Of a stretch of DNA of 64,000 bases, positions 21,777-33,961 are shown in pieces (positions within the stretch are counted from its first letter, which is position 1; each line of letters starts with the position of its first letter). Below the pieces are notes generated by a model. The model worked only from the letters and a program-made list of their open reading frames with translations, did not search any database and was not told where the DNA came from. A program made the position numbers and the translations under genes. This stretch comes from Hyphomicrobiales bacterium (GTDB lineage Bacteria; Pseudomonadota; Alphaproteobacteria; Rhizobiales; Aestuariivirgaceae), in NCBI GenBank assembly GCA_016185245.1, contig JACPNZ010000039.1:124001-188000 (forward strand). The letters are read 5' to 3'.

Positions 21777-22043
21777 GTGAAGGGCTGGGAACCAAATTGG
21801 GCCGCCCGCATGAGCGGGATGGGGCCCGTCGATCTTTATGGCCTGGTCGCCGTCCTTGCTGAAGATGCCAAGCATCTGGGCCTTCCGGCTTTCGCGTTAT
21901 CTCTGGAAAAATCTCTGGCCGAGCTCCTCATCGGCCTGCCGCGCGAGGACCAGGGCCTGGCGCTGTGCCGCGCCTATGAGCTGGCCCTTGACGGCGAAGC
22001 TCCGGCCCCACCGCCGATCCGTCTGGTCTATTCCAAGGATTAG
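21777..22043 (+). CDS. Small conserved-looking protein, function unknown
   Basis: Up to 88 residues from a GTG at 21777; an ATG at 21810 would give 77 residues (start MSGMGPVDLYG). The sequence is mostly helical (VAVLAEDAKHLGLPAFALSLEKSLAELL) with no motif recognised. Codon use resembles its neighbours. Its last 4 nt overlap the stop of the convergent MttB homologue. Existence is probable but not certain. Confidence 0.5.
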   Translation: MKGWEPNWAARMSGMGPVDLYGLVAVLAEDAKHLGLPAFALSLEKSLAELLIGLPREDQGLALCRAYELALDGEAPAPPPIRLVYSKD

Positions 22044-23563
22044 AAATCCGTAGGCTCGCCGCCCTCGGCGATGCGCCGGGCGACGAAAGCGTCGATTTCC
22101 TCGGCGATGGCCGCATCCATCGGCGGCTCCCGATACTGTGCCAGAGCCTGCTTCCACAGGGCATTGGCCTTCTCGACGGCTTGGGGCGAGCCCGCCTGCT
22201 GCCAGCTCTGGAAATTGCGCCAGTCGGAAATGAGCGGCTGGTAGAAGGCCGTGGCGTAGCGTTCGAGCGTATGCTTGGCGCCGAAGAAATGCCCGCCGGG
22301 GCCGACCTCGAGCATGGCGTCGAAGCCCATGCTGTCGTCGTCGACGACCAGCGGCGCCAAAAACACCTCGAGCATCTGCAGGAGATCGGCGTCGAGGGCG
22401 AACTTCTCGTAAGACGCAACCAGGCCCCCCTCCATCCAGCCGGCCGCATGCTGGATCACATTGCCGCCGCCCATGATGGCGCCCCATAGCGAGAATACCG
22501 TCTCGTAGGCCGCCTGGGCATCGACACTGTTGGCGGCATTGGTGCTCGAGGTGCGATAGGGCAGCTTGTAGCGCCTGGCCAGTTGCCCGCCGGCGATGCA
22601 GGCCTTCATGTATTCGGGCGTGCCGAAGGCCGGGGCTCCCGACTTCATGTCGACATTGGAGGTGAAGCCGCCATAGACGAAGGGGGCGCCCGGATTGGTG
22701 TGCTGCGACAGTGCCAGCCCGAACAAGGCCTCGGCATTCTGCTCGACGAGCGCCCCGGCAAGGGTGACCGGCGCCATGGCGCCAGCGAGGGTAAAGGGCG
22801 TCAGCACGCAGATCTGGTTGAGCCTTGCCATCTCGATCACCCCCATGGCCATGGGATTGTCGAGCTTCAGGGGCGAATTGGTGTTGATCACCGTATAGGC
22901 CGAGGGTTCCTTCAGGAACCGCTCGCGGGAAATGCCGCGCGCCAGGCGGGCGATCTCGAGGCTGTCGAACAGCCGGGCCCGGCCGGTCGAAACGACGAAG
23001 GGCACCTTATCCGAGAGCCGCACCTTGTTGCGCATGATGTGCAGATGGCGGATCGAGGCATGGACATCGAGGGCATCGACCGACCCGCCACCCGCCGTGT
23101 GGACGCAATTGAAGAACTGCGAAAGCCTGACGAAGTTGGCGTTGTCCTCGAGGCTGCCGGGCCGGCGCCCGCGGTCGAGATCGGAACAGTTGGGCGGTCC
23201 CCCCACCGGCGCGAAAGCGATCCAGTTGCCGCCGATGCGGATATGGTGGGCGGGATTTCTCGCATGGAAGGTGAACTCGGCTGGCGGCGTCTTGAGCGCC
23301 GCCTCGACGATCTCGGCACCCAGCCTGACGCGCTCGCCCGAGACACTCGCCCCGGCCTTGGCCAGAATGTCGCGGGCCTCGGGCAGCAGCACGTCCATGC
23401 CGATTTCCTTCAGCACACGGAGCGACTGGCGGTGGATCGTCTCGATCTGGTCGTCGGAAAGAATGCGGGCGGGTTCGAGCGTCAGGCGCGGCTGGGCAAA
23501 GGGCAGCTGGGCGATCGGCAGGTCGGCGGGTCGCGACCGGCGGCCGTGGCGTTCGGCGGTCAT
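22040..23563 (-). CDS. Trimethylamine methyltransferase (MttB)-family protein, copy 1
   Basis: 507 residues. MttB-family enzymes move a methyl group from a methylated amine to a corrinoid protein. It has the TIM-barrel family pattern (YGGFTSNVDMKSGAPAFGTPE, NAANSVDAQAAYETVFSLWG, EVGPGGHFFGAKHT). There is no in-frame TAG, so this is a non-pyrrolysine member, a group that acts on quaternary amines such as betaines. It is the last gene of the leftward operon and overlaps psuG by 4 nt. It is clearly paralogous to the copy at 25403-26974. Confidence 0.9.
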   Translation of the reverse strand: MTAERHGRRSRPADLPIAQLPFAQPRLTLEPARILSDDQIETIHRQSLRVLKEIGMDVLLPEARDILAKAGASVSGERVRLGAEIVEAALKTPPAEFTFHARNPAHHIRIGGNWIAFAPVGGPPNCSDLDRGRRPGSLEDNANFVRLSQFFNCVHTAGGGSVDALDVHASIRHLHIMRNKVRLSDKVPFVVSTGRARLFDSLEIARLARGISRERFLKEPSAYTVINTNSPLKLDNPMAMGVIEMARLNQICVLTPFTLAGAMAPVTLAGALVEQNAEALFGLALSQHTNPGAPFVYGGFTSNVDMKSGAPAFGTPEYMKACIAGGQLARRYKLPYRTSSTNAANSVDAQAAYETVFSLWGAIMGGGNVIQHAAGWMEGGLVASYEKFALDADLLQMLEVFLAPLVVDDDSMGFDAMLEVGPGGHFFGAKHTLERYATAFYQPLISDWRNFQSWQQAGSPQAVEKANALWKQALAQYREPPMDAAIAEEIDAFVARRIAEGGEPTDF

Positions 23564-24489
23564 GCTGTCTTCCTCGCATAGCTGACGGCGATTTCGGCCG
23601 CCAGCCGGGCGTTGTTGGCGGCCAGCGCGATATTGGCGGCCAGCGACCGGCCGGCGGTGACGGCGGCGATCTCGGCAAGAAGAAACGGCGTCACCGCCTT
23701 GCCGCGCACGCCGTTCTGCGCGGCCTTCGCCACCGCGGCGGCGATGACCGGAGCCATTTCGTCGGCCGGGATTTCGGCCGCCGCCGGAATGGCGTTGGCG
23801 ACGACGATGCCGCCCGCAAGTCCGAGCTGCCATTTGGCCCGCATCAGGCTGGCCACCTCGGCGGCCGTATCGCATCGCATCGGCACCCCATGGCCGCTCG
23901 CCCGCGAATAGAAGGCGGGAAACTCATCGGTGCCAAAGCCGACGACCGGCACGCCCAAGGTCTCGAGCGCTTCGAGAGTGAGTGCCAGATCGAGGATGGC
24001 CTTGGCTCCGGCCGTCACCACGGCGACATTCGACTGCGAAAACTCGGTCAGGTCGGCCGAGATATCGAAACTCGTCTCGGCGCCGCGATGCACCCCGCCA
24101 ATGCCGCCGGTGGCAAAGACGGCAATGCCCGCCCGTGCCGCGAGGCGCATGGTCGAGGCCACGGTGGTGGCGCCATGCTGCATGCGGGCGACCACGTAAG
24201 GCAAGTCGCGGGTCGAGACCTTGCGAATGTGGCTTCCCTCGCGACCGAGGAATTCAAGCTCGTCGGCGGCAAGGCCGATCCTGATCGCACCGTCGAGAAT
24301 GGCGATGGTGGCCGGCACGGCACCGCCGTCGCGCACGATCCGTTCCAGCGCGCCGGCCGTCTCGACATTCCGCGGATAGGGCATGCCATGGGCGATGATG
24401 GTCGATTCGAGCGCCACCACGGCATGGCCGTCGTGCAAGGCGGCCGCGACCTCGGGAGTGAAACGCAGATAGGGGTGCTTGGCCGTCAT
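23560..24489 (-). CDS. psuG: Pseudouridine-5'-phosphate glycosidase
   Basis: 309 residues. PsuG splits the C-C glycosidic bond of pseudouridine 5'-phosphate to uracil and ribose 5-phosphate. The three catalytic residues known from E. coli (E31, H137, K166) are here at E28, H134 and K163, a constant offset of 3. Signature stretches are ALESTIIAHGMPYPRN, TGGIGGVHRGAE and VTAGAKAILD. It overlaps both neighbours by 4 nt (ATGA), so it is translated together with the upstream kinase and the downstream MttB homologue. Confidence 0.95.
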   Translation of the reverse strand: MTAKHPYLRFTPEVAAALHDGHAVVALESTIIAHGMPYPRNVETAGALERIVRDGGAVPATIAILDGAIRIGLAADELEFLGREGSHIRKVSTRDLPYVVARMQHGATTVASTMRLAARAGIAVFATGGIGGVHRGAETSFDISADLTEFSQSNVAVVTAGAKAILDLALTLEALETLGVPVVGFGTDEFPAFYSRASGHGVPMRCDTAAEVASLMRAKWQLGLAGGIVVANAIPAAAEIPADEMAPVIAAAVAKAAQNGVRGKAVTPFLLAEIAAVTAGRSLAANIALAANNARLAAEIAVSYARKTA

Positions 24490-33100: not shown

Positions 33101-33259
33101 CGCGGCGGCCCTTCGCCGGCAAGGCGACGGAGCGGGACATTGTATCGTATCGGCCAAAGGCGGGGAAGGAACGGGACGGGAAGCAGGGGACATTGCTGTG
33201 ATGGCCGCTGACCGCCGATGACAAGCTGGCCATGACGAGAACTGGGAATGCTGGCGCGC

Positions 33260-33961
33260 TTACGACGCCGCCAGCTGGTTGTGCTTCCTGGCCATGTACA
33301 TCTTGGCGGTTTCGACCGCCACCGCCGCATCGCGGCAATAGGCGTCGGCGCCGATCGCCTTGGCGAATTCCTCGTTGAGCGGCGCACCACCCACCAGCAC
33401 GATGTAGTCGTCGCGCATGCCCTTCTCTTTCAGCGTGTCGATCACCACCTTCATGTAGGGCATCGTGGTGGTGAGCAACGCCGACATGCCGACAATGTCC
33501 GGCTGGTGCTCGGCGATGGCGGCGAGATATTTCTCCACCGGGTTGTTGATGCCGAGATTGATCACCTCGAAGCCGGCACCCTCCATCATCATGCCGACGA
33601 GGTTCTTGCCGATGTCGTGGATGTCGCCCTTGACCGTGCCGATCACCATCTTGCCCTGACGCGGCGCGCCGGTGGCGATGAGCAGCGGACGCAGGATGGC
33701 CATGCCGGCCTTCATCGAGTTGGCGGCGAGCAGCACCTCGGGAACGAACAGGATGCCATCGCGGAAGTCGACGCCGACGATGCGCATGCCTTCGACGAGC
33801 GCTTCGGTCAGCACCTTGTAAGGAGCCCAACCCCGGCCCAGTAGAATGTGGACGGCGGCCTCCACCTCTTCTTTCAGCCCGTCATAGAGGTCGTCGTGAA
33901 CCTGCTGCACCAGGTCCTCGTCGTTGAGGGAATTGAGATCGAGTTCGCCTTCATCGCTCAT
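33260..33961 (-). CDS. Corrinoid (cobalamin-binding) methyltransferase protein, MttC-like
   Basis: 233 residues. An N-terminal helical cap domain is followed by a Rossmann B12 domain with the lower-ligand motif DxHxxG (D113-I-H115-D-I-G118) in VKGDIHDIGKNLV, plus the SALLTTTMPYMK and VLVGGAPLNEEF stretches. It carries the methyl group between MttB-type enzymes and an acceptor. The ATG at 33961 has a GGAG site; a longer frame upstream lacks support. It is the only corrinoid protein in the window and so probably serves all three MttB homologues. Confidence 0.93.
   Translation of the reverse strand: MSDEGELDLNSLNDEDLVQQVHDDLYDGLKEEVEAAVHILLGRGWAPYKVLTEALVEGMRIVGVDFRDGILFVPEVLLAANSMKAGMAILRPLLIATGAPRQGKMVIGTVKGDIHDIGKNLVGMMMEGAGFEVINLGINNPVEKYLAAIAEHQPDIVGMSALLTTTMPYMKVVIDTLKEKGMRDDYIVLVGGAPLNEEFAKAIGADAYCRDAAVAVETAKMYMARKHNQLAAS

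Follow-up and report, generated by a model that had tools for sequence, protein, structure and literature searches.

A locus with three MttB homologues and one corrinoid protein in Aestuariivirga as a likely form of the aerobic MtgBCDE methyltransfer system

Gene content of the locus and its single carrier

The window analysed here, 64,000 nucleotides of contig JACPNZ010000039.1 (our contig C30), belongs to a 3.5 Mb assembly of the Aestuariivirga lineage. Its positions 22040–33961 hold a putative locus for corrinoid-dependent methyl transfer, in which three non-pyrrolysine homologues of the methyltransferase MttB are encoded together with the corrinoid protein MtgC. Two divergent operons lie on either side of a 164-base gap (Table 1). 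The minus operon runs LysR, MttB2, PsuK, PsuG, MttB1, and the plus operon runs MttB3, an Fe-S protein, a PF02574 protein of the homocysteine S-methyltransferase family (HMT) and a GFA-family protein. Past the plus operon, again on the minus strand, come DUF1638 and then MtgC, with a small opposite-strand open reading frame (ORF) between them. In the minus operon the LysR/MttB2, PsuK/PsuG and PsuG/MttB1 junctions each overlap by 4 bases (ATGA), and MttB2/PsuK overlap by 1 base (TGATG). All named genes proved to be intact ORFs with one terminal stop each; the start codons of MttB3, MttB1 and MtgC are our choice. The PF06253 scores of the three MttB homologues lie so far above the cut-off of 25 bits that a chance match is excluded.

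An earlier note, made from the sequence alone, had described three non-pyrrolysine MttB homologues in two divergent, overlapping operons. The ORFs, PF06253 matches and overlaps bear this out, and the Fe-S protein, HMT-family protein, GFA, DUF1638 and one B12-binding protein with DxHxxG that it listed are all at the locus. Absent from it were PsuG, PsuK, LysR, the ORF between DUF1638 and MtgC, and an MtgE/Bmt gene 3.8 kb past the locus. Among these, psuK and psuG most clearly set the minus operon apart.

The whole assembly encodes eight MttB homologues (PF06253) and exactly one B12-binding_2 (PF02607) protein, the MtgC of this locus; no MetH-type B12 domain was found in the assembly, which is 97.2% complete. 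Eight MttB genes against a single PF02607 protein support the proposal that several demethylases share one carrier, and a check for separate corrinoid partners elsewhere in the genome revealed no second PF02607 protein. The idea of several demethylases sharing one carrier is thus sound, but it is already known, and the combination is not unusual as the earlier note had held, since the same parts have been published for Ruegeria (PMC12478193; here and below, PMC papers are cited for parts of their text). In Ruegeria pomeroyi, mutants and proteomics revealed in 2025 an aerobic MtgB/MtgC/MtgD/MtgE system in which MtgC has a role in betaine demethylation and methionine synthesis alike, and up to seven MttB homologues per genome were reported (PMC12478193). 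In Phaeobacter inhibens, MtgC and MtgE homologues are parts of a split methionine synthase, and DUF1638 and RamA-like genes are important under the same conditions; the sections describing the DUF1638 phenotype propose no specific function for that protein (PMC5764234). The carrier described here probably also feeds methionine synthesis via MtgE.

The remaining parts are distributed over the genome. DUF1638 and MtgE are encoded within the window, and the genes for MtgD and RamA lie outside the locus: the one RamA-like activator in the assembly directly follows, on contig C35, an MtgD candidate called by PF00809 alone. Among 289 genomes of the class, 54 have MtgC, 48 have an MttB2-like protein and 45 have both; the MtgC count leaves out four genomes (G141, G185, G284 and G289) whose sole MtgC match is below 50% identity. 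The isolate A. litoralis KCTC 52945 (L048) has every gene of both operons together with DUF1638 and mtgC.

Table 1. Features of the locus and its surroundings, in window positions
Feature	Position	Strand	Support
MttB1, non-Pyl MttB homologue, 507 aa	22040-23563	-	PF06253 638 bits; sister of MttB2 in tree
PsuG, pseudouridine-5'-phosphate glycosidase, 309 aa	23560-24489	-	PF04227 415 bits; PDB 4gij 340 bits
PsuK-like PfkB kinase, 305 aa	24486-25403	-	PF00294; best PDB match 7vkp, 150 bits
MttB2, non-Pyl MttB homologue, 523 aa	25403-26974	-	PF06253 677 bits; tree
LysR-family regulator, first gene of minus operon, TTG start	26971-27897	-	PF00126 and PF03466
Palindrome GGTGAAATATTTTCACC, possible LysR operator	27969-27985		Divergent intergenic region
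MttB3, non-Pyl MttB homologue, other clade, 526 aa	28062-29642	+	PF06253 347 bits; tree
Fe-S protein, 220 aa, CblC/MMACHC-like predicted fold	29642-30304	+	Model; eight invariant Cys
HMT, S-methyltransferase-family protein, 303 aa	30305-31216	+	PF02574 159 bits
GFA-family protein, 129 aa	31213-31602	+	PF04828 78.5 bits
DUF1638 protein, 216 aa, likely B12 reactivation partner	31599-32249	-	PF07796 92 bits; family mutant phenotype in P. inhibens
MtgC corrinoid protein, 233 aa, DIHDIG at residue 113	33260-33961	-	Sole PF02607 protein found in assembly
MtgE/Bmt homocysteine methyltransferase, 338 aa	37796-38812	-	NF005718 519 bits, cut-off 338

The palindrome between the two operons has the core GTGAAA-N3-TTTCAC (27970–27984), which has no other match in the window. 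GGTGA-N7-TCACC is present in 10 of 25 intergenic regions compared, and a looser half-site in all 25; the shuffles used in this comparison preserved base content only. One LysR operator at this position may serve both operons. Scanning the divergent region for promoters and terminators gave no hits. The 132-aa ORF between DUF1638 and MtgC (32702–33100) looks PIN/VapC-like by eye alone.

MttB subfamilies and their likely substrates

We next consider what the MttB proteins might demethylate. A tree of 88 of 129 rows was built with a quick method, SH-aLRT support only and long-branch warnings; thinning had removed most genus copies, and L166 was left out because it duplicates L207. MttB1 and MttB2 come out as sister subfamilies (SH-aLRT 99) within a 65-row clade apart from Desulfitobacterium hafniense MtgB (9yce), on the 9yce side of the tree yet far from it. 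MttB3 and a copy on contig C57 of the same genome form a separate clade (SH-aLRT 100) with copies from Sinorhizobium meliloti, R. pomeroyi and Roseovarius. The S. meliloti MttB encoded beside mtgC on pSymB (L162, 7172–8746) is at zero tree distance from PDB 4yyc and, judging from this position, is probably the S. meliloti MtgB. The 4yyc entry itself is named only 'putative trimethylamine methyltransferase'. The closest relative of this protein in our genome is the copy on contig C45, which has genes for sarcosine oxidase alpha and for a protein of dimethylglycine dehydrogenase (DMGDH) type nearby. This C45 copy, and not MttB1, MttB2 or MttB3, appears to be the best candidate for a glycine betaine enzyme.

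For MttB1 and MttB2, gene neighbourhoods outside the genus are suggestive. Of 39 loci of MttB1/2 type, 11 have a DMGDH-type gene no more than 3.5 kb away, compared with none of 19 control loci; three examples were verified for DAO, FAO_M and GCV_T domains. The 39 loci are top search hits, some with short flanks, and exclude L161, L162 (another MttB type) and L166. In S. meliloti, R. pomeroyi and Roseovarius, MttB3-type copies have genes for FAD-dependent oxidoreductases nearby. The genome under study has about seven DMGDH-type genes of its own, counted from eight matches, two of which fall in one frame; these are the two match pieces within a single 852-aa frame at G000:C56:47144-49654.

Another clue comes from a plasmid of Mesorhizobium sp. 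WSM1497 (L158, 8968–15363). It encodes an MttB1 relative of 77% identity, nested in the Aestuariivirga MttB1 clade and followed by genes for Ldh2, a 2OG-Fe(II) oxygenase-like protein, a Rieske oxygenase and a substrate-binding protein. From its gene content this stretch looks like a transferred betaine degradation operon. A 78% relative of MttB1 also sits at a contig edge in a Paracoccaceae metagenome-assembled genome (L074). Taken together, the neighbourhoods suggest that MttB1 and MttB2 most likely demethylate betaines; proline betaine, a cyclic betaine, is our guess for MttB1.

The Rfam model PYLIS_3 matches MttB3 at 29119–29217 with 46 bits. We rejected a pyrrolysine or PYLIS element here, as the gene contains no in-frame TAG. 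Opposite the UAG at the start of the model, MttB3 has UGU, spanning parts of an ATG (Met) and a TGC (Cys) codon, and in our reading of the alignment the residue matching the pyrrolysine of 7xcl is Met. Ten further sources yielded four PYLIS_3 matches, all in MttB3-clade genes without an in-frame TAG (L007, L043, L048 and L215), and no match in L216 and L217 (same clade), L001, L003, L005 or L006. The match seems to follow coding homology.

Less expected genes at the locus

The Fe-S protein has no Pfam or NCBIfam match at E 0.001. In an alignment of 40 sequences, eight Cys (residues 141 to 191), an Arg and a Trp are invariant, and the cysteines would be enough for two [4Fe-4S] clusters. QueG has two such clusters and eight Cys. 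The AlphaFold2 model of the Fe-S protein (pLDDT 94.3) gave, as its first 12 Foldseek matches, human MMACHC/CblC only (best E 8e-6, probability 1.00, TM 0.43–0.45), followed by QueG (probability 1.00) and then by reductive dehalogenases at E >0.001, all of them cobalamin proteins. An earlier model from 17 rows had reached pLDDT 83 and an MMACHC E of 9.5e-3, so that the firmer match is owed to the deeper alignment. A viral fold search returned nothing at E 0.001. Sequence profiles point weakly to the CblC/MMACHC and QueG families. Since PF16690 scores 12.8 bits (E 0.086) against a gathering threshold of 27, we do not file the protein as CblC. It resembles CblC/MMACHC and QueG in predicted fold, but differs from them in a TM of only about 0.4–0.5 and in having no significant sequence match, and it is shorter than QueG.

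How closely does this protein follow the methyltransfer genes? In S. meliloti its counterpart, annotated as ferredoxin (44–46% identity), follows the mtgC-locus MttB. In G013 it stays with MtgC though MttB1–3 are gone from the locus, and it adjoins MtgC in two related genomes of another family (L261 and L262). In these two its gene is flanked by MtgC/DUF1638 on one side and a formate-tetrahydrofolate ligase gene on the other, the ligase family having been checked in L261. It occurs in 60 of the 289 class genomes, 40 of which have MtgC (Fisher p 2e-22, uncorrected for kinship). An exclusive partnership with MttB3 or MtgC was rejected: 20 of the 60 genomes are without MtgC, and 14 of the 54 MtgC genomes are without the Fe-S protein. 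The psuKG-GFA stretch of G033 (L086) likewise does not contain it, and it was not seen near MttB3 in L045 and L055. In one genome without MtgC its gene directly follows a fused gene of B12-binding, MeaB and methylmalonyl-CoA-mutase type (L258, 4817–8790), which gives a further connection to B12. The predicted fold makes a corrinoid reductase or chaperone plausible, and because of the 20 genomes without MtgC a general accessory role in corrinoid reduction or loading appears more likely than one for MtgC only. The main text of PMC12478193 makes no mention of a ferredoxin.

HMT is unusual in its predicted metal site. The zinc ligands of homocysteine S-methyltransferases are three cysteines, in NC and GGCC motifs. 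HMT departs from this pattern: His replaces the NC-motif Cys in all 30 related rows, and the 29 long enough to cover GGCC retain it. Some of these rows come from the same genome and two from L189, and His was paired with Cys ignoring a MAFFT gap. A plasmid search found at most about 30% identity among the 15 matches listed of 374 records. HMT may be an alternative acceptor enzyme.

This raises the question of whether the plus operon is a dedicated branch, in which MttB3 loads MtgC and the His-type HMT, not MtgD or MtgE, methylates homocysteine or another thiol. Retention of GGCC would fit such a role. Moreover, of 28 named loci with MttB3, 19 carry the Fe-S protein, HMT and GFA as a group downstream of it, and four of the remaining nine run into a contig edge. 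At one locus (L087, from G013) HMT and MttB3 are both missing, with the Fe-S protein, GFA, DUF1638 and MtgC remaining. On the other hand, HMT is present without MttB3 in L065, HMT was not detected in L047 beside MttB3, the Fe-S protein and GFA, and in L045 and L055 MttB3 has none of the three nearby. We consider a dedicated branch unlikely.

The psu genes suggest a different possibility. PsuG is genuinely related to 4gij, a PsuG of known crystal structure, and no other PsuG was found in the genome; PsuK is closest to the pseudouridine kinase 7vkp, but its score of 148.5 is below the cut-off of 540 for the NCBIfam PsuK equivalog. Given that both match real enzymes, MttB1 and MttB2 might be corrinoid-dependent demethylases of pseudouridine carrying a methyl group, for instance at N1 or N3, or of another methylated C-nucleoside or its 5'-phosphate, feeding PsuK and PsuG in a single pathway. 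The five-gene run from LysR to MttB1, with every junction overlapping, favours this, and choline/phosphocholine provides an earlier case of a kinase that serves an MttB pathway (PMC12155760; PMC12478193). Within the genus, MttB2 lies directly beside PsuK/PsuG in 21 of 24 assessable PsuG loci (28 were fetched, four were set aside at contig edges, and PsuG matches assigned to no locus are uncounted).

The two sets of genes nevertheless part separately. One genus genome (L049/L082) has adjacent MttB2 and MttB1 without psuKG, and three (G013, G014 and G033; L015, L021 and L013) keep psuKG without an adjacent MttB. No psuK was detected in four genus loci (L052, L053, L055 and L070), and no MttB1 in nine named loci with room for it (L040, L056, L058-L061, L064, L066 and L075). 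A search for the same gene order, as the earlier note had suggested, showed MttB2-PsuK-PsuG to be common in the genus, but the order did not recur at MttB1/2-type loci beyond it, where psu genes accompany none of the 39. L189, from another family, has the MttB2-MttB1 tandem without psu genes, its MttB2 cut at a contig edge. The 77% MttB1 relative on the Mesorhizobium plasmid likewise sits with Ldh2, 2OG-Fe(II)-type and Rieske genes. MttB2-like proteins and PsuG are both present in 26 of the 289 class genomes, the present one included. A general linkage across Alphaproteobacteria was rejected: only this genome has the two within 20 kb, the nearest other being about 51 kb apart (G214), as read from listed coordinates with at most five candidates scored per genome. 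Among the open-access papers listed in searches, titles and abstract openings gave no link of MttB or trimethylamine methyltransferase with pseudouridine, and nothing on bacterial N1-methylpseudouridine demethylation or catabolism pointing to one with MttB. The linkage is seen in this lineage only. Because the genes part separately and no outside locus has psu genes, psuKG were most likely inserted into an older MttB2-MttB1 operon. We therefore find a methylated-pseudouridine route improbable; if true, it would be the first B12-dependent recycling of methylated RNA nucleosides.

Finally, MtgC might serve methionine synthesis only, as the split enzyme of P. inhibens (PMC5764234) would allow, with the MttB proteins silent or using another corrinoid partner, but the lack of a second PF02607 protein in the assembly, the loss of betaine use in a published mtgC mutant (PMC12478193) and the presence of at least one MttB gene in each of 36 same-genus genomes searched make this very improbable.

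Proposed mechanism and comparison with known systems

We conclude, with a probability of roughly three in four, that Aestuariivirga has at this locus its own form of MtgBCDE, the aerobic system for corrinoid-dependent methyl transfer. The observations behind this are the gene content, the single carrier, orthology, gene neighbourhoods and the model of the Fe-S protein. From them we infer the reactions and substrates below, co-transcription and the role of the Fe-S protein. MttB1, MttB2 and MttB3 would each move a methyl group from a betaine-type quaternary amine to the Co(I) of MtgC, and MtgD, encoded elsewhere, would pass it on to tetrahydrofolate for one-carbon oxidation. In the reverse direction, MtgD, MtgC and MtgE would yield methionine. 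The corrinoid would be kept reduced by RamA (also encoded elsewhere), DUF1638 and probably the CblC-like Fe-S protein. The N-methyl products could then be oxidised by DMGDH-type enzymes encoded elsewhere in the genome. PsuK and PsuG would be ordinary pseudouridine catabolism enzymes whose genes lie inside a LysR-MttB operon, sharing a transcript but probably not a substrate.

Several observations weigh against this interpretation. The tight MttB2-psuKG linkage in the genus, together with the overlapping ORFs here, is not well explained by pure hitch-hiking. There is no DMGDH gene within 22040–33961, 28 of the 39 outside loci are without a DMGDH neighbour, and several of the 11 positives come from the same families. 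With 200 bits against 370 and 170 against 310, MtgC falls short of both NCBIfam cut-offs for this protein. We do not treat this model as defining, because aerobic MtgC is distinct from that of D. hafniense (PMC12478193).

If correct, our interpretation extends aerobic B12-dependent betaine demethylation to a lineage known from many genomes of uncultured bacteria, where one carrier would be common to eight demethylases and would probably also make methionine. The unnamed CblC-like Fe-S protein becomes a candidate for keeping corrinoid proteins active. The Mesorhizobium operon would offer a clue to the substrate of MttB1.

Among known systems, Eubacterium limosum (MtpB, MtcB, MtyB, MthB) similarly has several MttB paralogues and one corrinoid protein (PMC12478193), but it is an anaerobic acetogen with proved substrates, whereas those proposed here are inferred. 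The mtgC-bmt locus of S. meliloti pSymB (CP090106) shares MtgC, DUF1638, an MttB followed by the Fe-S protein, and a nearby bmt. Its MttB, unlike MttB3, is of the 4yyc type and of another clade; MttB1–3 are not its closest relatives in our genome, and the annotated features of that stretch include no psuKG, HMT or GFA. The closest parallel in parts is MtgBCDE of R. pomeroyi, with its non-pyrrolysine MttB, single MtgC, MtgD, MtgE, RamA and DUF1638, several MttB proteins per genome and no MetH-type B12 domain found (PMC12478193). The Aestuariivirga locus differs in having MtgD and RamA outside it and psuKG, a His-type HMT, GFA and the CblC-like Fe-S protein within it. Its core is of a known kind, met here in a new lineage. 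Modestly new are the accessories, of which the CblC-like Fe-S protein, the His-type HMT and the lineage-specific linkage to psuKG were less expected.

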